This document shows positions 6,565-38,666 of a DNA stretch of 41,939 bases, in pieces. Each line of letters begins with the position of its first letter. Positions within the stretch are counted from its first letter, which is position 1. The position numbers and the translations under genes were made by a program. The DNA is from a virus, in IMG/VR virus record IMGVR_UViG_3300033388_001990, positions 1 through 41,939 of that record; one strand, given 5' to 3'. A model generated the notes under the pieces. That model saw nothing but the letters and a program-made list of their open reading frames with translations, did not search any database and had not been told where the DNA came from.

Positions 6565-7079
6565 ATGTAAAAAAGTTGGATTTATTTGACTCATACATCG
6601 AAAACTTTAAAGAAGAGTTTAATAAATATCTCGAAGAAATAGCTGGATTAAGCGGGGTTAAAAGAGAAGATGGTTACACTTGTTATGTGCAAGATAATGT
6701 AAGTATAGCAGAACATATACCAAAAGATAAAATAGTTGTGGACGTTGGATGTAGTTTTGGACTACAACACGTTCTCTATAAAGACCACAAAGGATATATA
6801 GGGATACAAGCATTTAGAAAGGGGCTTAATTGTCACGATACATTTAAACCAACATTCAAAGTATTTACAGATAATGCCAAAATAATAGAAGGAGATTTCA
6901 AAGATGTATGGGAGCAAACAGGAATCACAGATGAAAATAAAGACCAATATTTTGGAATAGCCAATCATAGTTTATGGCACGACCCGAGTGCGAACGAAGA
7001 AGATATAGAATTATTTAAAAAATTATTTCCTAATAATAATTATGCAACAGAAGAATCAAATGCAAAAGTTAAATTCTAA
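6552..7079 (+). CDS. Putative SAM-dependent methyltransferase (small)
   Basis: This 175-residue protein overlaps the upstream stop by 13 bases. It contains a motif I-like sequence (VVDVGCSFGLQHVLYKDHKG) typical of class I Rossmann methyltransferases, followed by YIGIQAF at the acidic-loop position. The usual acidic residue that binds the SAM ribose is not obvious, and the protein is shorter than most enzymes of the class. It may be a diverged methyltransferase or a protein that only keeps the fold. Context is a surface-sugar cluster. Confidence 0.55.
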   Translation: MGELNVKKLDLFDSYIENFKEEFNKYLEEIAGLSGVKREDGYTCYVQDNVSIAEHIPKDKIVVDVGCSFGLQHVLYKDHKGYIGIQAFRKGLNCHDTFKPTFKVFTDNAKIIEGDFKDVWEQTGITDENKDQYFGIANHSLWHDPSANEEDIELFKKLFPNNNYATEESNAKVKF

Positions 7080-7791
7080 TCATCCAACCCTTAAAATGGA
7101 TGAGCATAAATTTGTTATATGGCTTCCGCAAGACAAGAAAAGGGAAGTTAATATGCAAGATTTAATTTGGATTAAACACACTTTAGGAACGTGGGAACCA
7201 GAGACAACTGAATTAGTCAAAAACATTCTTAAAGAGGGGCAAACAGCAATAGATATAGGAACATCAGTAGGATACTTCTCATTGTTGTTCGCAAGGCAAG
7301 TTGGAAGCACTGGAAAAGTTCTATCAGTAGAACAAGGACCAATGCAATTCAATTATATGGATTATAATGTCAAGAATAATGGGTATGAAGACAGGTCAAT
7401 ACGATATAATAACGCAGCTTATAATCAGAATATAGAATACCAATTACCTATTCTAGGTTATCAGAAAATGGATTGGAAAGTCCAAGGTATTAAAGTAGAT
7501 GACCTAGTAAAGAAGCACAACCTAAAGGTTGACTTCATAAAGATGGACATAGACGGAGGAGAGCCAGAAGCCTTAGAAGGATTACAAGAAACCTTTGAGA
7601 ATAATCCTAATCTACAAATGGTCATAGAATATTACCCTAGTTACATAGAAGGAGCTGGAGGCTCAACTCAGAAGTTCTGGGATATATTAGATAAGTATTT
7701 CACTTATGAGAAGTTAGGAGCAGACCACGATGTAGCATCAGAAAAATTAGCACTTCACTATAATTTAATATGCAAAAGAAAACCCATTTAA
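7042..7791 (+). CDS. FkbM-family methyltransferase
   Basis: This is a class I SAM methyltransferase of the FkbM type, 249 residues. Motif I is TAIDIGTSVGYFSLLFAR, motif II follows (GKVLSVEQGP), and VDFIKMDIDGGEPEALEGL is the diagnostic FkbM signature. These enzymes often O-methylate sugars in capsule, LPS or exopolysaccharide clusters. The start is ambiguous: the ATG at 7042 overlaps the previous gene by 38 bases, while the in-frame ATG at 7060 would shorten it by six residues. It sits between a second putative methyltransferase and a glycosyltransferase, all translationally coupled. Confidence 0.85.
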   Translation: MQQKNQMQKLNSNHPTLKMDEHKFVIWLPQDKKREVNMQDLIWIKHTLGTWEPETTELVKNILKEGQTAIDIGTSVGYFSLLFARQVGSTGKVLSVEQGPMQFNYMDYNVKNNGYEDRSIRYNNAAYNQNIEYQLPILGYQKMDWKVQGIKVDDLVKKHNLKVDFIKMDIDGGEPEALEGLQETFENNPNLQMVIEYYPSYIEGAGGSTQKFWDILDKYFTYEKLGADHDVASEKLALHYNLICKRKPI

Positions 7792-8540
7792 TTTACATCC
7801 CTTTTACGGGATTAGGAATTACTGAGTATAAAGGAGACTCTTGGTTCCAATATAGAGCAAACATATTTAGAGATTATGTTGTTAAAAGTCTAAAGGCACA
7901 GACTACGAAAGACTTCACAATATGGATTTCATTCAGACCAGAAGAAAAAGATAACCCAGTTGTTACACAAATAGCCAAGGATATAGAAGACGCTGGATTA
8001 AAACACATATTCACATTTGATGGAGTAATGATGCACGATGATAGAGGAACTTGGCACAATCAAGACCTAGAAGAAAGGATGCAAAAATCCTTAGATTATT
8101 TAAAAGAATGGTTAGAACCATCAGAGTGGATTTATAAGACAGACCTAGGCTCAGATGATATGTTTTCTAAGATTGCCTTAGAAGAAATACAAAAAGTAGA
8201 GCCCAAAGAAAGGGGAGCAACATATTACTTTAGTGGATATATAATGGACATGGTGGGGGACAGAATAGCAGAGTGGAATAGAGATTCTAGCTGCTCTAAA
8301 TACACTGTCATATACCCCTCAGACGCATTCTTTGATGCCTCTAAGCATTTAGAATACGTTAAAGGACTAGAGAGCCACGAATTGCTTCCACAAATATTTG
8401 ATGCCACTAAATTACCAGATGGCAGGTATATGTGCGGAGTCCACAGAGGGAACATTTCAACCACTTGGGACAATTCCTTTAGAGGAAAACAATTCAACGA
8501 TATAGATAAAAAAGCAATTAAAGAAAAATTCGGTTTATGA
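7770..8540 (+). CDS. Putative rhamnosyltransferase-like GT-A glycosyltransferase
   Basis: This 256-residue protein overlaps the FkbM gene by 22 bases. Features match the putative rhamnosyl transferase family: an N-terminal YFxY-like strand region (HLIYIPFTGLG), a helix with RANIFRDYVVKSLKAQTTKD, the strand FTIWISFRPE, and an acidic D-x-G-S-D-D segment (KTDLGSDDMFSK) likely to coordinate the metal-nucleotide sugar. The C-terminal CGVHRGNISTTW is also typical. The family assignment is from memory and rhamnose as donor is not proven. Confidence 0.65.
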   Translation: MQKKTHLIYIPFTGLGITEYKGDSWFQYRANIFRDYVVKSLKAQTTKDFTIWISFRPEEKDNPVVTQIAKDIEDAGLKHIFTFDGVMMHDDRGTWHNQDLEERMQKSLDYLKEWLEPSEWIYKTDLGSDDMFSKIALEEIQKVEPKERGATYYFSGYIMDMVGDRIAEWNRDSSCSKYTVIYPSDAFFDASKHLEYVKGLESHELLPQIFDATKLPDGRYMCGVHRGNISTTWDNSFRGKQFNDIDKKAIKEKFGL

Positions 8541-9550
8541 AAATACCATACGTTAAGTTTGGAGAAAGTTATAAACAAATAAGAAAAGAAATATTAAAAG
8601 AGATAGACAGAGTTTTGTCAAGTGGAGACTTGATACTAAGAGAAGACGTAGAGAAGTTTGAAGAAAACTTTGCAAAATATGTAGGTAGTAAATATTGTGT
8701 AGGAGTAAATAGCGGAACAGATGCATTATATTTATCCTTAAAAGCATTAGGGATTAAACAAGGAGATAAGGTAATGGTTCCTAGTTATACATTTGTAGCG
8801 ACGGCACAAGTAGTAAAACAATTAAAAGCAGAATTATTCTTATATGATGTAGGCGAAAAGTTTGAAGACTTAAAGAATATAAAAGCTATTATGGTTTCTC
8901 ATATGGCAGGAGAGTTTATGACAGATATGGAAAAACTCAAAGAGAAAGCAGGAGATATACCGATAATAGAAGACGCTTGTCAAGCATTGGGAGCTATACA
9001 GAACAATAAGAAAGCAGGAACATTCGGGATTACAGGTTGTTTCTCATTTTATCCAGCTAAAATATTAGGCTGCTATGGAGATGGTGGTGCTATAGTTACC
9101 GATAATAAGATGATTTATAACGAAGTTAAAGAGCTAAGAAACCATTATAAGAAAGATTATTCAAAATGGGGTATCAATTCAAGATTAGACAATCTCCAAG
9201 CAGCAATTCTAAATGTTAAATTAAAGTATTTAGATAAAGTTATAGCTAGGAGAGAGGAAATAGCTCAATTATATTTAAAAGGATTAGGATATAGATTCAC
9301 AGAAGACAGAGGCTCTAAAAGAGTATGGCAAGACTTCATAATCTTAGAACATAATAGAGATTTATTATTCAACCATTTAAAAGAAAAAGGGATTGAAACA
9401 ATGGAAAATGATTATTTCTTTCCAATAGAAAAATGTATGGACTCAATAAGGTATGAAGCACAAACATTAAGGTTGCCAGTCAATGAGGCAATCACCGATA
9501 AAGAGGTCAAGTTTATTATTAAATCTATAAAAGAGTTTTATGTCAAATAA
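8537..9550 (+). CDS. DegT/DnrJ/EryC1 sugar aminotransferase
   Basis: This PLP-dependent aminotransferase of 337 residues acts on keto sugars of nucleotide-linked intermediates. Visible signatures are GVNSGTDALYLSLKALGI (phosphate binding), VPSYTFVATAQ, IIEDACQALGA (the Asp that contacts the PLP ring), and CFSFYPAKILGCYGDGGAIV, with Lys175 as the Schiff-base lysine. NSRLDNLQAAIL closes the domain. It is slightly shorter than the usual 360-390 residues but complete at the C-terminus. The gene starts with an ATGA overlap. A second, shorter paralogue lies at 36482. Its likely substrate is the 4-keto product of a dehydratase such as the one at 14867. Confidence 0.9.
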   Translation: MKIPYVKFGESYKQIRKEILKEIDRVLSSGDLILREDVEKFEENFAKYVGSKYCVGVNSGTDALYLSLKALGIKQGDKVMVPSYTFVATAQVVKQLKAELFLYDVGEKFEDLKNIKAIMVSHMAGEFMTDMEKLKEKAGDIPIIEDACQALGAIQNNKKAGTFGITGCFSFYPAKILGCYGDGGAIVTDNKMIYNEVKELRNHYKKDYSKWGINSRLDNLQAAILNVKLKYLDKVIARREEIAQLYLKGLGYRFTEDRGSKRVWQDFIILEHNRDLLFNHLKEKGIETMENDYFFPIEKCMDSIRYEAQTLRLPVNEAITDKEVKFIIKSIKEFYVK

Positions 9551-14866: not shown

Positions 14867-15646
14867 ATGACAATCTTAATTACGGGGGCAGCAGGTTCAA
14901 TAGGTAGTGAACTTGTTAGACAACTTAGTAAGACTAATAATGTAATTGCAGTTGACCAAGATGAAAGTGGACTTTACGATTTAGAGGGATGCACACCAGT
15001 TATAGCCAACATAAGAGATAGAGAAAGACTTAATGATATATTTAGTCATTATAAGCCTGACATAGTTTATCACGCAGCAGCGTATAAGCATCTTTCAAGC
15101 TATGAGAAAGAGAACCTATATGAAGTAATAGAAACAAATATACAGGGCACAAAGAATGTAATTGAGACAGCCAAGAAGTATAAGGTCAAGAAACTTGTGT
15201 TTATCTCCACAGATAAGGCAGTTAATCCAACGAGTCTAATGGGAACAACTAAACTCTTAGGAGAAATAATGGCTAAACGAAGTGGGTATATTGTAGTAAG
15301 ATTTGGCAACGTATTCGGAAGCAGAGGAAGTGTAATTAAGAAATGGGAGAAACAAGCAAAAGAAGGCAAACCCATAACCATTACAGATATTAGAATGACA
15401 CGCTACTTTATGAGCATAAAAGACGCTTGTAAACTAGTTATAGAGGCATCTAAGAAAGGAAAAGGAGGAGAGATATTTATTTTAGATATGGGCGAACAGA
15501 AAAAGCTCATAGATATAGCAAAAGGTTATTCAGATAAAATAAAAATAATAGGTGCCAAAGAAGGCGAAAAATTATGTGAAGAATTAATGACAGAAGAAGA
15601 AATTATAAAAGCTAAAAAAATAAAAGATTTTTATGTCATCAAATAA
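14867..15646 (+). CDS. Nucleotide-sugar 4,6-dehydratase-like SDR (CapD/PseB type)
   Basis: This 259-residue short-chain dehydrogenase is of the polysaccharide biosynthesis family. NAD binding is through GAAGSIG (residues 7-13). FISTDKAVNPTSLMGTTKLL is the CapD/FlaA1 signature, with Met in place of the usual SDR catalytic Tyr (MGTTK), as is normal in this family. VVRFGNVFGSRGSVIKKW and ITITDIRMTRYFMSIKDA complete it. Such enzymes convert UDP-GlcNAc or similar to a 4-keto-6-deoxy sugar, the substrate class of DegT aminotransferases. It is shorter than PseB (about 330). It starts two bases after a tail gene. Confidence 0.85.
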   Translation: MTILITGAAGSIGSELVRQLSKTNNVIAVDQDESGLYDLEGCTPVIANIRDRERLNDIFSHYKPDIVYHAAAYKHLSSYEKENLYEVIETNIQGTKNVIETAKKYKVKKLVFISTDKAVNPTSLMGTTKLLGEIMAKRSGYIVVRFGNVFGSRGSVIKKWEKQAKEGKPITITDIRMTRYFMSIKDACKLVIEASKKGKGGEIFILDMGEQKKLIDIAKGYSDKIKIIGAKEGEKLCEELMTEEEIIKAKKIKDFYVIK

Positions 15647-16388
15647 ACTACGTAAACAAATTATCAAGAGTAGTTACGAAGCAGGAGCATGCCATCTAGG
15701 AAGTGCACTAAGTTGTGCAGACCTAATAGAGGCAATATATTATATTAAAAAGCAAAGTGAGACATTCTTGTTTGCTAAAGCAAGTGGGGTAGCAGCATTA
15801 TATTGTTATCTACACCCTAAAAAAGCAGCAAAATACTTAAAAGAATATCCGTTACCAGATAAAAGAGTGCCAGGAATTGAACATTCATTTGGCTCATTAG
15901 GACACGGAATACCAGTGGCAGTAGGGGTAGCACTAGCAAATAAAAAAAAGAGAGTTTATTGTCTTATAGGAGACGCAGACTTGCAAGAAGGAACATTCTG
16001 GGAAAGTTTGTTATTTGCATCACATCACAATCTAAGCAATTTAGTTATACTTGTAGATAGAAATAATATTCAAGCCTGCGGAAAGACAGAAAAGATTATC
16101 AAACTTAATCCTCTAAGAAATAAGATAGAATCGTTTGGATGTGATGTTCATATAGTAAATGGACACAACAGAAAAGAAATTGAAGAGATATTTGATGAAC
16201 CAATCTATATGAGTGATGAAGATTTTGAGCCCTGTGGATTAGTTTCTAAACAATTTTATAAACCAACGGTCGTCATAGCTAAAACAACAAAAGGTAAAGG
16301 TGTTGACTTTATGGAAAACAACCATACTTGGCACTATAAAAACCTAGACGAACATGGACTTAAGAACGCATTATCACAACTATCTTAG
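15633..16388 (+). CDS. Transketolase, N-terminal (TPP-binding) subunit
   Basis: This 251-residue split transketolase subunit overlaps the dehydratase by 14 bases. HLGSALSCADLIEAIYYI and GSLGHGIPVAVGVALANKKK lead to the TPP-Mg motif CLIGDADLQEGTFWESLLFA ending in VDRNN (GD...NN). The last third carries TKGKGVDFMENNHTWHYKN, typical of the subunit. Split transketolases are common in archaea and in surface-sugar clusters, where they move two-carbon units to make unusual or branched sugars. A dedicated pathway step is more likely than a general pentose-phosphate role. Confidence 0.88.
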   Translation: MSSNKLRKQIIKSSYEAGACHLGSALSCADLIEAIYYIKKQSETFLFAKASGVAALYCYLHPKKAAKYLKEYPLPDKRVPGIEHSFGSLGHGIPVAVGVALANKKKRVYCLIGDADLQEGTFWESLLFASHHNLSNLVILVDRNNIQACGKTEKIIKLNPLRNKIESFGCDVHIVNGHNRKEIEEIFDEPIYMSDEDFEPCGLVSKQFYKPTVVIAKTTKGKGVDFMENNHTWHYKNLDEHGLKNALSQLS

Positions 16389-24963: not shown

Positions 24964-25198
24964 CTTTAAAATAGATAGCAAGCATGGGTTAGAAGTTTAT
25001 TATTGTATGTTTGTTAATGGCTATCATTCGCCTCAACGCAGATGGGATAAATGGTTATGCATAGCATGCAATAAAATTTATAATAGTCAAGAAGAATATG
25101 AGAAAGAGCATATGTTTGTTTGCAAAATAGATAATAAAAGGTTTGAAATAGAAAAAATATTATGCGATAAAATTTATGAAAAAAATACTCGTACTTAG
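24944..25198 (+). CDS. Small protein with possible zinc-binding Cys/His (84 aa)
   Basis: This protein overlaps the upstream gene by 20 bases and the downstream deacetylase by 23. WLCIACNKIYNSQEEYEKEH followed by MFVCK gives a C-x2-C-x15-17-H-x3-C arrangement like a C2H2/C2HC zinc finger. The first third has YYCMFVNGYHSPQRRWDKW. I recognise no family. Coupling with the flavoprotein and the LmbE-type deacetylase suggests a part in the same process. Confidence 0.6.
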   Translation: MKPSDINFKIDSKHGLEVYYCMFVNGYHSPQRRWDKWLCIACNKIYNSQEEYEKEHMFVCKIDNKRFEIEKILCDKIYEKNTRT

Positions 25199-25775
25199 TC
25201 CACATCCCGACGACGGCGTCATAGGTTGTGGAGGATATATAAATAAAGCGTTAGAGAATGGAGCAGAAGTATTATATGTTATATTCTCTTGTAATAAACA
25301 AGGCTTCAGTGAGTTAGAAATAGAAAATTCAATAAGAGAATTAGGGGTGGCTGAAGATAGAATAATCACACTTGATTATCCAGTCAGAAGATTTAATGAA
25401 TATAGACAAAGCTTATTGCAAGAACTTATTCAACTTAGAGGACAGTTCGAACCAGACATAGTATTATGTCATTCTAGCTTTGACAAACATCAAGACCACG
25501 AAGTTATTAACAACGAGGCAAAGAGAGCATTTAAACATACTACGTTGCTAGGGTATGACCTACCTTGGAACACAAAAGACTTTAGGCATGACGCTTATAA
25601 GCCTTTAGAAGAAAAACATATTAGTAAAAAGATTGTAGCTATGGGAAAATGTGAGAGCCAATCCCACAGAAGATATTACAACCCAGAGCTAAGAATGGCA
25701 CAAGCTAGATATATAGGAGAGAAAAAGGATTTAGATTACGCAGAAAGTTTTGAAATAATTAATCTTATTTTATGA
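25176..25775 (+). CDS. LmbE/PIG-L family deacetylase
   Basis: This is a zinc-dependent N-deacetylase of 199 residues. The HPDD motif at residues 10-13 (LSPHPDDGVIGCGG) and the later HQDH at 105-108 supply the metal ligands and catalytic Asp. AQARYIGEKKDLDYAESFE is the usual C-terminal segment. Such enzymes deacetylate GlcNAc-type groups on lipids, nucleotide sugars or glycans and are frequent in surface-polysaccharide clusters. The next gene (ATP-grasp) overlaps by four bases. Together with the DegT and GNAT genes it suggests handling of amino/N-acyl sugars. Confidence 0.9.
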   Translation: MKKILVLSPHPDDGVIGCGGYINKALENGAEVLYVIFSCNKQGFSELEIENSIRELGVAEDRIITLDYPVRRFNEYRQSLLQELIQLRGQFEPDIVLCHSSFDKHQDHEVINNEAKRAFKHTTLLGYDLPWNTKDFRHDAYKPLEEKHISKKIVAMGKCESQSHRRYYNPELRMAQARYIGEKKDLDYAESFEIINLIL

Positions 25776-26509
25776 AAAGGATTTTAGTCACAGCCTGCGG
25801 GCATCAAGGAGGATACGATTTATGCACCTTTCTTAAGGGTAAGGGATACTATGTGATTGGAACAGACATAAACCCATATTGTGCAGGAAGGTTCTATTGT
25901 GATGAGTTCTATATGGGAGATTGTTTAGTAGAATATGACTTTAAACTTATTACATCTAGTCATGAGATTAAGTGGTTTGATAAGCACCAAGTGTATGAAA
26001 TGTTGCACGATAAGATACCACTACCACAATATATATATTCAGAAAAGTATGTGGTTAAACCAGTGTTAGGAAGCGGGGCAAAGGGAGTGGAATATTTGGA
26101 GACAGATAAAATGGTGATGGAATATATGGAAGGAGAGAATATAGATGTAGATGTAGTGTCAGAGGGCAAAGAGCTTTTGATAGCTATACCGAAACTAAGG
26201 AGAAGAGCCTATGGAGGCACCCTAGTAGAAGGAGAGATAGTAGATAGACCATACATAGTAGAGCAGATTGAAGAAGCACTAAGAGTCTTACCTTTAAATG
26301 GATTATCTTGCTGGCAATTTATAGATGGAAAGCTGCTAGAGATAAACCCCAGAATAGCAGGAGCAGTAGCAGATTATGAGATAGTAGACCTATGGATAAA
26401 ATACAGTTTAGGAGAAATAGAGAAAGAAGAACTAAAAAAATATCAACCAAATTATAGACAAGAAATAATAAGATGTATACAGACGGTAAACCAAAACTTA
26501 AAACAATGA
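25772..26509 (+). CDS. ATP-grasp enzyme (carbamoyl-phosphate-synthase-like), compact
   Basis: This 245-residue protein starts with a Rossmann-type domain (RILVTACGHQGGYDLCTFLK). A shortened ATP-grasp domain follows: YVVKPVLGSGAKGVEYLE (phosphate loop), MVMEYMEGENIDVDVVSEG, and LLEINPRIAGAV (metal ligand E-x-NPR). These enzymes join a carboxylate to an amine or thiol using ATP. Versions in polysaccharide clusters often accompany LmbE proteins. It is shorter than the common 300-350 residues, with the middle domain trimmed. The stop overlaps the next start as ATGA. Confidence 0.85.
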   Translation: MKRILVTACGHQGGYDLCTFLKGKGYYVIGTDINPYCAGRFYCDEFYMGDCLVEYDFKLITSSHEIKWFDKHQVYEMLHDKIPLPQYIYSEKYVVKPVLGSGAKGVEYLETDKMVMEYMEGENIDVDVVSEGKELLIAIPKLRRRAYGGTLVEGEIVDRPYIVEQIEEALRVLPLNGLSCWQFIDGKLLEINPRIAGAVADYEIVDLWIKYSLGEIEKEELKKYQPNYRQEIIRCIQTVNQNLKQ

Positions 26510-30187: not shown

Positions 30188-30247
30188 ATGGACGAAGAAA
30201 CAAAAGTAGATGAAGTAGAAGAAGTGGAAGAAGAAACCACTGAATAA
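30188..30247 (+). CDS. Very short acidic ORF (19 aa)
   Basis: ATG at 30188, TAA at 30245-30247. It encodes MDEETKVDEVEEVEEETTE, nearly all acidic. It follows a 39-base gap and directly precedes a structured 3' region. It could be a DNA-mimic-like or regulatory peptide, or a chance ORF. Support is limited to position, an A-rich start context and the lack of other coding use. Confidence 0.35.
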   Translation: MDEETKVDEVEEVEEETTE

Positions 30248-30381
30248 CGTTAGTGCTTGGGTGTCGGCATCGTGAGACATATCAGCTATTGAAACACAGC
30301 TCTACGCCACCTAAACTGGCTAGAGGAATATCACACAAAATTAAAGCGTTGTTAGTGATGAGACCGCACCAAAGGCAACAT
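30248..30381 (+). ncRNA. Structured 3' region ahead of the terminator
   Basis: About 134 bases without an ORF. TTGGGTG (30257-30263) pairs with CACCTAA (30308-30314), closing a loop that contains further short pairings, and a weaker stem involves TATCAC and GTGATG. With the terminator that follows it could make a stable small RNA or 3' UTR. No separate promoter is clear, and no Rfam class is recognised by eye. Confidence 0.4.
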
Positions 30382-30406
30382 GAGCTCTGAAAGGGGCTCT
30401 TTTTAT
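30382..30406 (+). terminator. Rho-independent terminator
   Basis: GAGCTCT (30382-30388) pairs with GGGGCTC (30393-30399) around a GAAA tetraloop, and TTTTTATT follows. It ends the transcription unit that starts at 23962. Confidence 0.85.
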
Positions 30407-30410
30407 TACC

Positions 30411-30419
30411 TGTGGATAA
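30411..30419 (-). promoter_or_regulatory. DnaA box (perfect 9-mer)
   Basis: TGTGGATAA, the complement of TTATCCACA, lies six bases upstream of the -35 at 30426 and just after the terminator. Confidence 0.6.
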
Positions 30420-30425
30420 CTTTTA

Positions 30426-32367: not shown

Positions 32368-32438
32368 TCCGAGGTCGTATAAAGGTAGTACGCTGGGCTT
32401 TGAACTCGGAAATTGAGGTTCGATTCCTTACCTCGGAA
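32368..32438 (+). tRNA. tRNA-Gln (anticodon TTG)
   Basis: The acceptor stem TCCGAGG (32368-32374) pairs perfectly with CCTCGGA (32431-32437). The D-arm is 32377-32391, the anticodon stem 32393-32397/32405-32409, and the loop CTTTGAA (anticodon TTG at 32400-32402). The variable loop has four bases and the T-arm has a canonical TTCGATT loop (32419-32425). The weak U1-A72 pair is a tRNA-Gln identity feature. The discriminator is A and CCA is not encoded. It starts the base after the lysozyme stop codon. Confidence 0.88.
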
Positions 32439-32455
32439 CATATTAACTAGACTAA

Positions 32456-32483
32456 ACTTCGCATAATCACTATTAACCGAAGT
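32456..32483 (+). repeat. dif-like site 1 (28 bp, 11-6-11)
   Basis: Left arm ACTTCGCATAA, centre TCACTA, right arm TTAACCGAAGT. The arms are imperfect inverted repeats (ACTTCG / CGAAGT). Layout and left-arm sequence resemble XerC/XerD dif sites. Sites 1-4 all point the same way. Confidence 0.65.
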
Positions 32484-32484
32484 A

Positions 32485-32622
32485 TAACCATTGTGAGCTG
32501 GGGTGGCGATATTTGTACAAAATATCAAATGCCAAGTTGGATTAATTATCCAACTATAACCCGAATAGTTTAGCGACGAAAGGGGTTGCAAGTTAATTCT
32601 TGCCCTCAGCTCCCAGTGGTTA
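32485..32622 (+). ncRNA. Five-way-junction RNA cassette between dif-like sites 1 and 2
   Basis: The closing stem is TAACCATTG (32485-32493) with CAGTGGTTA (32614-32622), then GAGCTG (32495-32500) with CAGCTC (32607-32612). Inside are four hairpins. The first has TGGC (32504-32507)/GCCA (32531-32534) enclosing GATATTT/AAATATC (32508-32526). The second is a perfect 8-bp AGTTGGAT/ATCCAACT (32535-32555). The third pairs AACCC (32558-32562) with GGGTT (32583-32587), and the fourth GCAAG with CTTGC (32588-32603). The structure fills the interval between the two sites exactly. It is not a tRNA (no T-loop or anticodon arm). Confidence 0.65.
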
Positions 32623-32626
32623 ACAT

Positions 32627-32651
32627 ACTCCGCATCACTATTAACCGAAGT
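32627..32651 (+). repeat. dif-like site 2 (25 bp, left arm shortened)
   Basis: Same centre (TCACTA) and right arm (TTAACCGAAGT) as site 1, but the left arm is ACTCCGCA: it lacks the last three bases (TAA) and has one substitution. Possibly a decayed or recombined copy. Confidence 0.6.
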
Positions 32652-32708
32652 ATAACAAAAATGAGTGCCGAAACGTGACAAAAAGCTAACAAACTAGCAC
32701 CCATTTTA

Positions 32709-32801
32709 TAAATTAGTTCTTTTCTGGGGGAATGTTAGGCTTTAAAACTTCGGAATGAGTAAGCCAGTGGGTTCCGAGTTCCCCAAAAGAGAATTAATTT
32801 A
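32709..32801 (+). ncRNA. Long-stem hairpin RNA C
   Basis: TAAATTAGTTCTTTT-type sequence (32709-32723) pairs with 32787-32801, continuing through TGGGG/CCCCA to GAA/TTC, giving about 20 pairs with one mismatch and a bulge. The enclosed loop has a hairpin GGCTT (32738-32742)/AAGCC (32761-32765). No ORF of note covers it. Its 3' strand overlaps the 5' strand of RNA D, so the two stems compete. Confidence 0.5.
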
Positions 32802-32900
32802 TTAAGAGCTGGGAAACCAGCTGAATAGGTATGGCGGGTAATCGGGTTAGCAGTTGTGAACGAAAACTCCGTAAGCAACTGCCTAGCTCTTAATAAATTA
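32795..32900 (+). ncRNA. Long-stem hairpin RNA D
   Basis: A perfect 16-bp stem pairs 32795-32810 (TAATTTATTAAGAGCT) with 32885-32900. It encloses GCAGTTG (32850-32856)/CAACTGC (32876-32882) and a small AGCTGGGAAACCAGCT hairpin (32807-32822) that competes with the top of the long stem. It ends 13 bases before the ATG at 32914, so it may control that gene or be a free RNA. Confidence 0.5.
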
Positions 32901-32913
32901 TAAATTAAAATAT

Positions 32914-33141
32914 ATGAAAAATAAATATCGCGTAGATAAACCAGAGTATTGGTGGGATGTAGCAATAACAATAAAAAGTATGAAAAAAGAAGAAAATAGA
33001 GAATGTAAACATAAAACTAAACACACAGAACAATATATATCATTAGATGGAAATGATAAAATAAGATGTGGAAAAATAATCATTATTACTTATTGTGCAG
33101 ATTGTGGTAAAAGATTACATAGAATAGAAACAGATAGATAA
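32914..33141 (+). CDS. Small cassette protein, possible zinc site (75 aa)
   Basis: This protein is basic with two Cys/His groups (ECKHKTKHTEQY and IITYCADCGKRLHR), which may form a zinc site. The N-terminus is KNKYRVDKPEYWWDVAITIK. There is no family match that I know. The gene lies in the cassette bounded by dif-like sites 2 and 3. Its stop TAA (33139-33141) is followed by CCGAT and then site 3, the same spacing as the next cassette ORF has to site 4. Confidence 0.55.
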   Translation: MKNKYRVDKPEYWWDVAITIKSMKKEENRECKHKTKHTEQYISLDGNDKIRCGKIIIITYCADCGKRLHRIETDR

Positions 33142-33146
33142 CCGAT

Positions 33147-33174
33147 ACTTCGTATAACGTGCATTCTGCGAAGT
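33147..33174 (+). repeat. dif-like site 3 (28 bp, 11-6-11)
   Basis: Left arm ACTTCGTATAA, centre CGTGCA, right arm TTCTGCGAAGT. The right arm is almost the exact complement of the left, and this is the copy closest to published Xer left-arm sequences of the plasmid pdif type (from memory). ATG of the next ORF lies 10 bases after it. Confidence 0.65.
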
Positions 33175-33184
33175 ATAAATATAT

Positions 33185-33382
33185 ATGAAACAAGAAACAT
33201 TAGAAATGATAGAAGAATATAATTCAAATGGAGTTTGTGTTAAAAGAACAATCAATGGTTTTGATTTACCGCCAGACAAAGAGCCGAGTGTTGTTATTTT
33301 TAGAAATTTAAAAAGTATTACACAGAAATTCTATATGACAAAAGAAGAAGCGAGACAAAGATTCGGAAATATCAAATTATAA
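33185..33382 (+). CDS. Small cassette protein (65 aa)
   Basis: Encodes METLEMIEEYNSNG-like sequence (starting MKQETLEMIEEYNSNGVCVK), with a beta pair (RTINGFDLPPDKEPSVVIF) and a basic helix (FYMTKEEARQRFGNIKL). No motif known to me. It is a single-ORF cassette: the start lies 10 bases after site 3, and the stop TAA is followed by CCGAT and site 4. That fixed offset is the strongest sign that ORF and site form a mobile unit. Confidence 0.55.
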   Translation: MKQETLEMIEEYNSNGVCVKRTINGFDLPPDKEPSVVIFRNLKSITQKFYMTKEEARQRFGNIKL

Positions 33383-33387
33383 CCGAT

Positions 33388-33415
33388 ACTTCGCATAACA
33401 ACCATTAACCGAAGT
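33388..33415 (+). repeat. dif-like site 4 (28 bp, 11-6-11)
   Basis: Left arm ACTTCGCATAA, centre CAACCA, right arm TTAACCGAAGT. Arms are identical to site 1; only the centre differs. The next ATG (33424) is eight bases downstream. Confidence 0.65.
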
Positions 33416-33423
33416 ATAAATAT

Positions 33424-33531
33424 ATGGAAAAAACAAAACTAGCATTTACATATATACTAATAGTTATATTAGCACCACCACTTTTCGCTGTGGCGTGTAA
33501 ATGGGCATTCTTTTGGTTTGATTTTATATGA
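33424..33531 (+). CDS. Small membrane peptide (35 aa)
   Basis: Encodes MEKTKLAFTYILIVILAPPL then FAVACKWAFFWFDFI, one to two membrane helices. It starts eight bases after dif-like site 4 and overlaps the next ORF as ATGA. No fifth site follows, so it may be the first fixed gene after the cassette array or the last cassette of it. Confidence 0.5.
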   Translation: MEKTKLAFTYILIVILAPPLFAVACKWAFFWFDFI

Positions 33532-35298: not shown

Positions 35299-35602
35299 CA
35301 ACCCAGCTACCCTCATAGAAGCCCCTTAGATGGCAACCTAGAGCCTTGTTTATAAGCATAACTACGATAATACATACATAACATCACTACCTAGAGCGAA
35401 TGCATGTGGTAATCTACCTATAGCAGAGATGAATGTCTAGTGATGATATTAGCAGACGCCCTTGAAATGGTACAACTTCCCCCACACACACATAAACACA
35501 GACAATTGGGCCTCTTATAAGGATAAGGGGGGGTGGGATAGGCGAGTTCAAAGGAGAGGAATAGTATATATGGTCACCATACAGGATAACTTAGAAATAG
35601 AC
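35299..35602. other. Noncoding region after terS; candidate packaging site and gene remnant
   Basis: About 300 bases without a convincing ORF. It holds three ACCTA(G/T)AGC copies (35336, 35389, 35416) and an 8-bp inverted repeat CATCACTA/TAGTGATG (35382-35389/35438-35445). A C-run (CCCCCACACAC, 35480s) and a G-run (GGGGGGGTGGG, 35527-35537) may pair. Bases 35317-35347 closely match part of the lysozyme gene (31988-32017). A pac or cos site is plausible here. Confidence 0.45.
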
Positions 35603-36173: not shown

Positions 36174-36485
36174 ATGTCAGAAAATATAATAAAAGTGATA
36201 GCTTCTATAGACGATATAAAAGTTGAAACAAAATTAGGATTTAATGACGAAGAGTGGAATAGACTTAAAAATAATGAGTTTATGAAAAAAAGATATATTA
36301 AACATCATTTCTTACCATTATTACAAAAGTACTTTTTGACAGAAGAAGGTAAAGAATATAATAGATTAACAGACGAATTAAGAGAAACACTATCTTTAGA
36401 TGTTCTCCATAGAAGAGATAAAATTAAAGATAAACCTCGTTCATATTTAAAAGAAGAAGATTTAAACATAATTTATCCAAAATGA
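36174..36485 (+). CDS. Protein of unknown function (103 aa)
   Basis: This charged, mainly helical protein begins NIIKVIASIDDIKVETKLGF and ends in a basic C-terminal helix (VLHRRDKIKDKPRSYLKEED). It lies between the oxidoreductase and the aminotransferase, four bases after one and overlapping the other by four, so it is part of the sugar insert. No motif or family recognised. Confidence 0.6.
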   Translation: MSENIIKVIASIDDIKVETKLGFNDEEWNRLKNNEFMKKRYIKHHFLPLLQKYFLTEEGKEYNRLTDELRETLSLDVLHRRDKIKDKPRSYLKEEDLNIIYPK

Positions 36486-37408
36486 TAAACGCAATTAAGC
36501 GGGTATTAGATAGCGGACAATATATATTAGGAAAAGAGGTTGAGGCGTTTGAAAGAGAAGTCGCCGACTATTATGGTATGGAGTATGCCATCGGATGCAA
36601 CAGCGGGACAGATGCCCTAATTCTTTCATTAGAAGCCTTGGGTATAGGGAAAGGAGACGAGGTGATTACTACACCATATACGTTCATTGCATCAGCAGAA
36701 AGCATCGCAAGAGTGGGGGCAAAGCCAGTCTTTGTAGACATAGATTACGATACTTTTTTAATAGACCCAGATAAGATAGAAGCAGCGATTACAGAGAATA
36801 CGAAAGCTATTCTTCCTGTCCATTTATTTGGAGAGGTCTGTGATATGGCACGGATAATGGAAATCGCTGACCACTATAATCTTAAAGTCATAGAAGACGC
36901 AGCACAATGTTTTGGGTTTGAGGGGCTAGGTAAAGGCGACACTTTGTGCTTCAGTTTCCATCCATCTAAATCTTTAGGAGGATGCGGAGACGGAGGCATA
37001 ATTCTCACCAATAATAAGAGAGTCGATAACAAGCTTAGGTCTCTACGAAACCACGGTGCGGATTTATTTAAAGGTCCAGAAGGAAAGTATCATAATCTAT
37101 GTGTAGGGTATAACTCACGCTTAGATGAAATACAAGCAGCAATATTAAGAGAAAAATTAAAAGATTTCGGAAAATATGGAATTAAAAAACTATACACATT
37201 TAGAACTCCGAACAGAGAACTTGTACAACAATGGTTGGAAGAGAACCAAGTTGACAACAAAATCTATTATTCCAAACTCCTCCATCTCCAGCCATGTTTT
37301 GAATTTCTGGGGTATGAAAAAGGAGATTTGCCAGTTGCAGAAAAAGCAGCCGAAGAGTGTCTAACTATAAATATATATGTCAACTCTAAACGAGATAATA
37401 AAGTTTAA
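36482..37408 (+). CDS. DegT/DnrJ/EryC1 sugar aminotransferase, internally shortened
   Basis: The N-terminal two thirds are complete: IGCNSGTDALILSLEALGIG, TPYTFIASAESIARVGAKPV, KVIEDAAQCFGF and CFSFHPSKSLGGCGDGGIIL with the Schiff-base lysine at 163. After NSRLDEIQAAILREKL the usual 60-residue segment (RR...Y...L) is reduced. The protein ends about 30 residues early at LTINIYVNSKRDNKV, where the terL start overlaps by 32 bases. At 308 residues it is a trimmed paralogue of the gene at 8537. It may still be active, since the PLP site is intact. Confidence 0.85.
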   Translation: MINAIKRVLDSGQYILGKEVEAFEREVADYYGMEYAIGCNSGTDALILSLEALGIGKGDEVITTPYTFIASAESIARVGAKPVFVDIDYDTFLIDPDKIEAAITENTKAILPVHLFGEVCDMARIMEIADHYNLKVIEDAAQCFGFEGLGKGDTLCFSFHPSKSLGGCGDGGIILTNNKRVDNKLRSLRNHGADLFKGPEGKYHNLCVGYNSRLDEIQAAILREKLKDFGKYGIKKLYTFRTPNRELVQQWLEENQVDNKIYYSKLLHLQPCFEFLGYEKGDLPVAEKAAEECLTINIYVNSKRDNKV

Positions 37409-38666
37409 ACCGAGAGAATCACAAAAACAAATATCAGACTGTAAAGAAAGAGAGATGGCAATATGTGCAGGAAGACGATGGGGTAAATCTGTTATATGTG
37501 CATATATTATAACAAAAGAATTCTATAAGGCATTTAAGAAACTGAGGTCTGGAGAAATAGACTCATGGAAATGTTGGATAGTAGCACCTAATTATGAGTT
37601 GACACAAAAGGTATTTGATTATGTAGTAAAGTTCTTATTAAAAGCAGAACCAGACTTAGGTAAATATATATCAAGCAGACCATTCCCACAGATAAGGCTA
37701 ACAGAGAGCTTCTGGATACAATGTAAGTCAGCAGAGAACCCTACTTCTTTATTAGGAGAAGAGTTAGACCTAATCATTATTGATGAGGCAGCCAGAATAT
37801 CTAAGAACATCTGGGACACATATATCTACCCTACCACTACTATTAGAAAGGGTAAGGTGATATTCATTTCTACTCCATTTGGACAAAACTGGTTTTTCCA
37901 TAAATACAATCAATGTGCAGAAAATAACGCAGCATTTCATTTTGAGAGCAGAGACAATCCATTATTTGAAAAAAGTGAATGGGATAAAGCTAAACTATTA
38001 TTCCCAGCAGCGATATTCTCACAAGAGTATGAAGCTACCTTTAACCCAGATGCAGCAGCAGTATTTAGAGGTATAGATGAAATAATTAAAGATAATTGCC
38101 TATCAGATTATGTAAGAGACCATAGATATGTAATGGGAGTAGATTTAGGCAAACACGAAGATTTTACAGTAATAACTGTAATAGATAAATATAATAACAA
38201 CGTAGTCTATTTCGATAGATTTAACACAATAGATTATCCTTTCCAAAAAGCAAGGATTAAAGCAACATCAGATAGATATGCAGGAGCTAGAGTGATATTA
38301 GACTCTACTGGAGTAGGGGAACCAATTAAGGATGACCTTATGAGAGCTCAGGTATTTGTAGATGATTTTGTCTTCACAAACAAATCTAAAAAAGAATTGA
38401 TAGAGAAGTTGTCTATCTTTATAGAACAAAAAAATGTATTTATACCAAATGAACAAAAATTAATTAGTGAACTAAGAGAGTTCGGTTATCATTTAACTGA
38501 CTCTGGGAACGTAATATACGGAGCACCAGAAGGAAGTCACGATGATTGCGTATGCTCTTTAGCATTAGCAGTATGGGGGTTGATTGGAAAAGCACACCCC
38601 AAAACAGCATTACAAGAAGAAATGGCTAAAGCTAAAAGAGTTAAGGTAATAGAAAGTAATATATGA
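37377..38666 (+). CDS. terL: Terminase large subunit
   Basis: This 429-residue packaging motor has Walker A CAGRRWGKSVICAY (GRRWGKS at 32-38), Walker B LDLIIIDEAARISKN, and motif III (VIFISTPFGQNWF). The RNase H-like nuclease domain has MGVDLGKHEDFTVITVID, GVGEPIKDDL-type strands and the final acidic GSHDDCVCSLALAVWGL. Length is normal. The start overlaps the aminotransferase. The portal gene follows with an ATGA overlap, the standard order. Confidence 0.95.
   Translation: MSTLNEIIKFKPRESQKQISDCKEREMAICAGRRWGKSVICAYIITKEFYKAFKKLRSGEIDSWKCWIVAPNYELTQKVFDYVVKFLLKAEPDLGKYISSRPFPQIRLTESFWIQCKSAENPTSLLGEELDLIIIDEAARISKNIWDTYIYPTTTIRKGKVIFISTPFGQNWFFHKYNQCAENNAAFHFESRDNPLFEKSEWDKAKLLFPAAIFSQEYEATFNPDAAAVFRGIDEIIKDNCLSDYVRDHRYVMGVDLGKHEDFTVITVIDKYNNNVVYFDRFNTIDYPFQKARIKATSDRYAGARVILDSTGVGEPIKDDLMRAQVFVDDFVFTNKSKKELIEKLSIFIEQKNVFIPNEQKLISELREFGYHLTDSGNVIYGAPEGSHDDCVCSLALAVWGLIGKAHPKTALQEEMAKAKRVKVIESNI

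Follow-up and report, generated by a model that had tools for sequence, protein, structure and literature searches.

A tailed phage with dif-like sites that suggest the use of the Xer recombinase of a probable Patescibacteria host

The window, i.e. the whole stretch of DNA that was analysed, is an apparently complete tailed-phage genome of 41,939 nt with a 114-bp terminal repeat. Its host probably belongs to the Patescibacteria, which are tiny uncultured bacteria. The genome contains four sites in direct orientation, three of them intact and one damaged (Table 1). We consider it probable that they are dif mimics recombined by the Xer enzyme of the Patescibacteria host, such that the phage would give the sites and the host the enzyme. 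The first part of this reading is the firmer one: judged by their sequence, the sites are very likely recognised by host Xer. That the array has grown by the capture of cassettes is a reading to which we assign somewhat less than an even chance. The comparisons given below suggest that the phage borrows host Xer to rearrange or maintain its DNA.

Sites 1, 3 and 4 display an 11-6-11 layout with imperfect dyad arms, to which site 2 conforms in part. A search with the site pattern, allowing for up to three mismatches, gave six matches (these three sites on both strands), compared to 0.03 expected in shuffles. An initial annotation, made from the letters of the DNA, had described 11-6-11 sites with ACTTCG...CGAAGT arms and a second site that lacks three left-arm bases but has the centre and right arm of site 1; both descriptions were correct. 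Core and right arm of site 2 are identical to those of site 1, and its left arm is devoid of TAA and contains one T>C exchange. The arms pair in nine of eleven positions; the inner bases are unpaired (GCATAA versus TTAACC), and these mismatches are common to host dif. Site 3 deviates from the TTAA inner motif. Three different cores occur among the four sites, namely TCACTA (sites 1 and 2), CGTGCA (site 3) and CAACCA (site 4). The search for a fifth site in the window and beside its G-tract yielded half-site pairs at chance level only, and no GC-skew switch was found at the array. The claim that no recombinase is encoded also held: neither the tyrosine recombinase PF00589 nor the serine recombinase PF00239 gave a match anywhere in the phage genome.

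Table 1. Features of the site array and of the terminase region of the phage genome.
Feature	Position	Strand	Remark
tRNA-Gln (TTG)	32368..32439	+	directly ahead of site 1; ARAGORN and Rfam
Site 1, dif-like: ACTTCGCATAA TCACTA TTAACCGAAGT	32456..32483	+	arms equal to those of the L018 chromosomal dif
RNA A	32485..32622	+	multibranched fold that fills the interval from site 1 to site 2; without an Rfam family; z -7.5
Site 2, damaged: ACTCCGCA TCACTA TTAACCGAAGT	32627..32651	+	
RNA B	32655..32912	+	structured stretch opening the interval between sites 2 and 3; z = -4.8
75-aa ORF	32914..33141	+	between sites 2 and 3, after RNA B; no family match
Site 3: ACTTCGTATAA CGTGCA TTCTGCGAAGT	33147..33174	+	
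65-aa ORF	33185..33382	+	sole content of the interval from site 3 to site 4; no family match
Site 4: ACTTCGCATAA CAACCA TTAACCGAAGT	33388..33415	+	
35-aa ORF	33424..33531	+	start 8 bases beyond site 4
G-tract GGGGGGGTGGGATAGGCGAGTT, putative cos/pac	35527..35548	+	often adjoined by the single dif-like site of relatives
Terminase large subunit	37377..38666	+	anchor used to find relatives

The intervals between the sites are compact. RNA A comprises 138 nt and folds with -60.6 kcal/mol (z = -7.5), in agreement with the earlier observation that an RNA fills one interval. In the Rfam search, the tRNA alone reached the threshold, and RNA A and RNA B remained unmatched; a match of 16.6 bits to drum RNA was rejected, being far under the 43-bit cut-off of that family. 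The ORF following RNA B has, in our reading of its sequence, zinc-ribbon-like Cys pairs. As initially annotated, this ORF and the next one (33185-33382) both terminate with TAA-CCGAT-site, and the next ATG is found 10 bases beyond site 3 and 8 bases beyond site 4. The flanks of sites 3 and 4 are alike on either side (79% over 61 nt); the one-ORF interval therefore looks like a "site + ORF" unit.

Elsewhere in the genome, the portal protein was recognised by homology. Many genes for sugar modification were noted (DegT aminotransferases, an epimerase, an FkbM methyltransferase, PIG-L and a transketolase-like protein; positions 7042-9550, 14867-16388, 25176-26509 and 36482-37408), which suggests glycan synthesis by the phage. 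The stretch 30236-30420 is non-coding and has a terminator-like hairpin at its end; it is possibly a further small RNA, with a fold that is not significant (z -1.4).

A scan of 84,980 species genomes with the arm pattern led to 32 loci; matches in Pantoea, a planctomycete and Chloroflexi and the lox-like loci L011 and L012 were set aside. Several Patescibacteria loci read ACTTCGCATAA TGTAGA TTAAGCGAAGT. The initial annotation had proposed a comparison with the dif sites of candidate hosts, and this comparison gave complete identity: both arms of the chromosomal site of the Patescibacteria locus L018 equal those of sites 1 and 4 in 22 of 22 bases, with a xer gene 43 bp away. Each of 11 genomes checked contains exactly one such site (at most two mismatches); that of locus L021 is located on a phage contig, the remaining ones on different contigs. 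For seven loci from Patescibacteria or related organisms, the distance between the site and a xer gene is 40-320 bp, the gene being that of the L018 Xer itself or 57-62% identical to it. Within the order to which L018's genome belongs, 13 of 119 genomes gave a match with no more than one mismatch; ten newly fetched loci of this order include xer, and in all ten the site is 8-165 bp away from the gene. Genomes common to the order-wide and the phylum-wide scan assign this order to the phylum that also contains a Falkowbacteria genome. A phylum-wide search for ACTTCG arms was positive for one genome out of 380, which restricts this class of arms to parts of the phylum. Other Patescibacteria contain sites of the ATGTCG/ACGTCG class within about 1 kb of xer. 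Sites next to xer were seen at L018 (4047-5077), L099-L109, L114, L118, L122, L127 and L128.

The dif site of Patescibacteria appears to adjoin a single xer gene and to come in two or more classes of arms, among them ACTTCG and ATGTCG/ACGTCG. By analogy, we take the xer-adjacent sites to be the dif of a single-Xer system like XerS/difSL, whose xer gene likewise adjoins its site (PMC5357621). The open-access literature searched contained no report of dif in Patescibacteria or their phages. None of the three cores of the window equals a known host core.

Alignments of terminase and portal were used to gather about 50 loci of relatives. No near relatives were found in phage records, the lysozyme ORF and both cassette ORFs have no homologues in viral contigs, and no related phage sharing the intervals of the window was detected. 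Among the relatives, the 1.4 kb upstream of terL show a 10-fold enrichment of dif-like sites (p = 2e-5); examples are L055, L061, L062, L067, L068 and L076. The arms of these sites fall in the Patescibacteria dif classes, the GTCG class of several being that of xer-adjacent host sites, and their cores are unlike those of the hosts. The exact arms of the window recur, around the core TAATCA, in L021, a contig whose portal is related. A second viral scan, for the ATGTCG class, gave 67 loci with one such site each within the examined stretch, compared to about 7 loci expected by chance according to our own estimate. PF00589 is absent from 34 of 35 site-bearing virus records, many of which are fragments. 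Judged by these sequences, dif mimics without an own recombinase look widespread; a direct tandem array was found, among the loci searched, only in the phage studied here. Because the arms equal those of a xer-adjacent host site, relatives contain sites of host classes, and the phage has no own recombinase, the Xer/dif identity of the sites is strongly supported.

A different arrangement of host-type sites occurs in a virus of 37.9 kb, G522 (IMGVR_UViG_3300028914_000196). It contains GATAGATTTTACGACATTA six times, with the orientation alternating from copy to copy, around tail-fibre segments (L247 1-4320 and the end of L248), and one of the copies is in frame within a gene with tail-fibre matches. 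The first 17 bases of GATAGATTTTACGACATTA are identical to the core and right arm of the xer-proximal host site L122. The searches of this record for a tyrosine or a serine recombinase found none. From its sequence, the six-copy array is probably a tail-fibre shufflon run by host Xer. The interpretation of the end sites as attL and attR of a dif-integrated prophage was rejected, as there are six alternating copies in tail-fibre sequence.

In many relatives, the single dif-like site lies 5-110 nt upstream of the conserved G-tract near terS/terL, which is a putative cos/pac; contig L081 starts exactly at the G-tract, as a packaging cut would give. About 50 nt beyond the G-tract, close to the terminase genes, there is a CAGG match that is rich in C (window 35527-35595), and the positions of the G-tract in relatives are L013 2711, L055 6062, L059 535, L061 1975, L021 527 and L081 1. 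In phage P1, loxP is located near pac. The location of the single sites would suit a function in genome maintenance, for which host Xer would circularise terminally redundant DNA or resolve multimers of a plasmid-like phage, with extra copies being by-products of duplication. Phage cores that are unlike host cores are also in line with this explanation, as they suit self-recombination but not recombination with the chromosome. However, the window has no dif-like site at its G-tract, the array being 2.1 kb upstream, and contains three different cores, although one site suffices for multimer resolution. Given, moreover, that the G-tract is a cos/pac only putatively, we regard genome maintenance as a possible but rather improbable explanation.

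Integration is less likely still. The sites could be mimics of the attP type, by which the phage integrates into host dif via host Xer in the manner of IMEX, and the different cores might suit different hosts. IMEX phages depend on host Xer and a single dif-like attP, and in VGJphi part of the core may be mismatched (PMC5357621). The identity of the window's arms to host dif agrees with this, as does a prophage in genome G124, which is distant but has a related portal. It terminates with an integrase of its own, behind which come a dif-like site and then host chromosomal genes (SLT, M23 peptidase and GluRS), and a second dif-like site was noted upstream of the prophage's terminase region; these features are on contig C1 (L147 6072 and L148 14088-15385). 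Yet this prophage encodes an integrase, and no prophage of this phage group inserted at dif without one was found. Every ACTTCG-class genome checked has a single site, a relative of the portal is present in only 3 of 380 genomes, and no lysogen was seen among the ACTTCG-class genomes; furthermore, the cores of the window have little in common with known host cores. For the attP array that the initial annotation had considered, neither a matching host core nor an integrase-less dif prophage was found. That the sites have nothing to do with recombination and are protein operators placed between transcripts, or RNA hairpins for processing or stability, would fit their imperfectly palindromic form, the dense coding around them and the neighbouring tRNA and structured RNAs, but is highly improbable given that the inner arms are unpaired with the same asymmetry as in the xer-adjacent site of L018, that the 11-6-11 spacing is constant while the core varies, and that the outer arms track host dif classes across phages.

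The preferred explanation is that of dif mimics served by host Xer. Host Xer would bind and recombine the phage sites. An ancestral single phage site may have become an array via Xer-mediated cointegration and deletion with other site-bearing DNA, the partners being presumably no longer visible. Small units would have been left between the sites (RNA A; RNA B plus an ORF; one ORF), and a later drift of the cores could have stabilised the array. Xer strand exchange requires closely related cores (PMC11705084). Due to their differing cores, sites 3 and 4 are predicted to recombine neither with each other nor with site 1. A common core is present in sites 1 and 2 only, so the RNA A interval alone is predicted to be excisable, and this poorly, since site 2 lacks part of the left arm. 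The sites of G522, in contrast, share a single core, as an active system requires. The presence of three cores that all differ from known host cores and the deviation of site 3 from the TTAA motif speak against the preferred explanation. Likewise, neither a product of recombination nor the gain or loss of an interval was observed, and in the closest precedent, the xrs cassettes of Acinetobacter, excision does not take place by modules (PMC11705084). Of the host-Xer cassette platform proposed in the initial annotation, the Xer/dif part is borne out by the L018 arms, whereas the mobility of the cassettes would be restricted, as the cores are predicted to allow only sites 1 and 2 to recombine. 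An array of movable cassettes seems plausible.

The sites resemble those of XerS/difSL, XerH/difH and XerA/dif, which are palindromic Xer sites with near-symmetric arms whose host copies adjoin xer (PMC5357621); in contrast to these single-Xer systems, the phage has several copies, with cores unlike each other and unlike those of known hosts, and no adjoining xer. IMEX (CTXphi, VGJphi, TLCphi and LME-1 of Legionella) likewise combine a dif mimic with the lack of an own recombinase and rely on host Xer (PMC5357621, PMC9765430), as the phage probably does. However, they are mostly filamentous phages or islands with one attP and not tailed phages with an array. The xrs/pdif modules of Acinetobacter plasmids have several Xer sites with divergent cores bounding one or few genes, on an element without a recombinase, as in the phage (PMC11705084); they mostly form inverted pairs on resistance plasmids, whereas the phage copies are direct and bound RNAs and tiny ORFs. 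Integron gene cassettes are similarly compact units of an ORF and one site in a single orientation, but the phage has no integron integrase, no folded sites of the attC type and no attI/promoter platform, and its sites are dif-like.

In its widest form, which we put forward tentatively and with more doubt than confidence, the interpretation is that tailed phages of Patescibacteria generally outsource site-specific recombination to host Xer by means of dif mimics matched to the host, with an integron-like platform that captures one-ORF and structured-RNA cassettes, locked by core changes, in the phage studied here and a tail-fibre shufflon in G522. If this is true, many integrase-less Patescibacteria phages use the host enzyme of chromosome dimer resolution, and tailed phages would join plasmids as carriers of Xer-based systems for cassettes and inversion. 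Furthermore, the arm classes of dif could then help to link uncultured phages to uncultured hosts.
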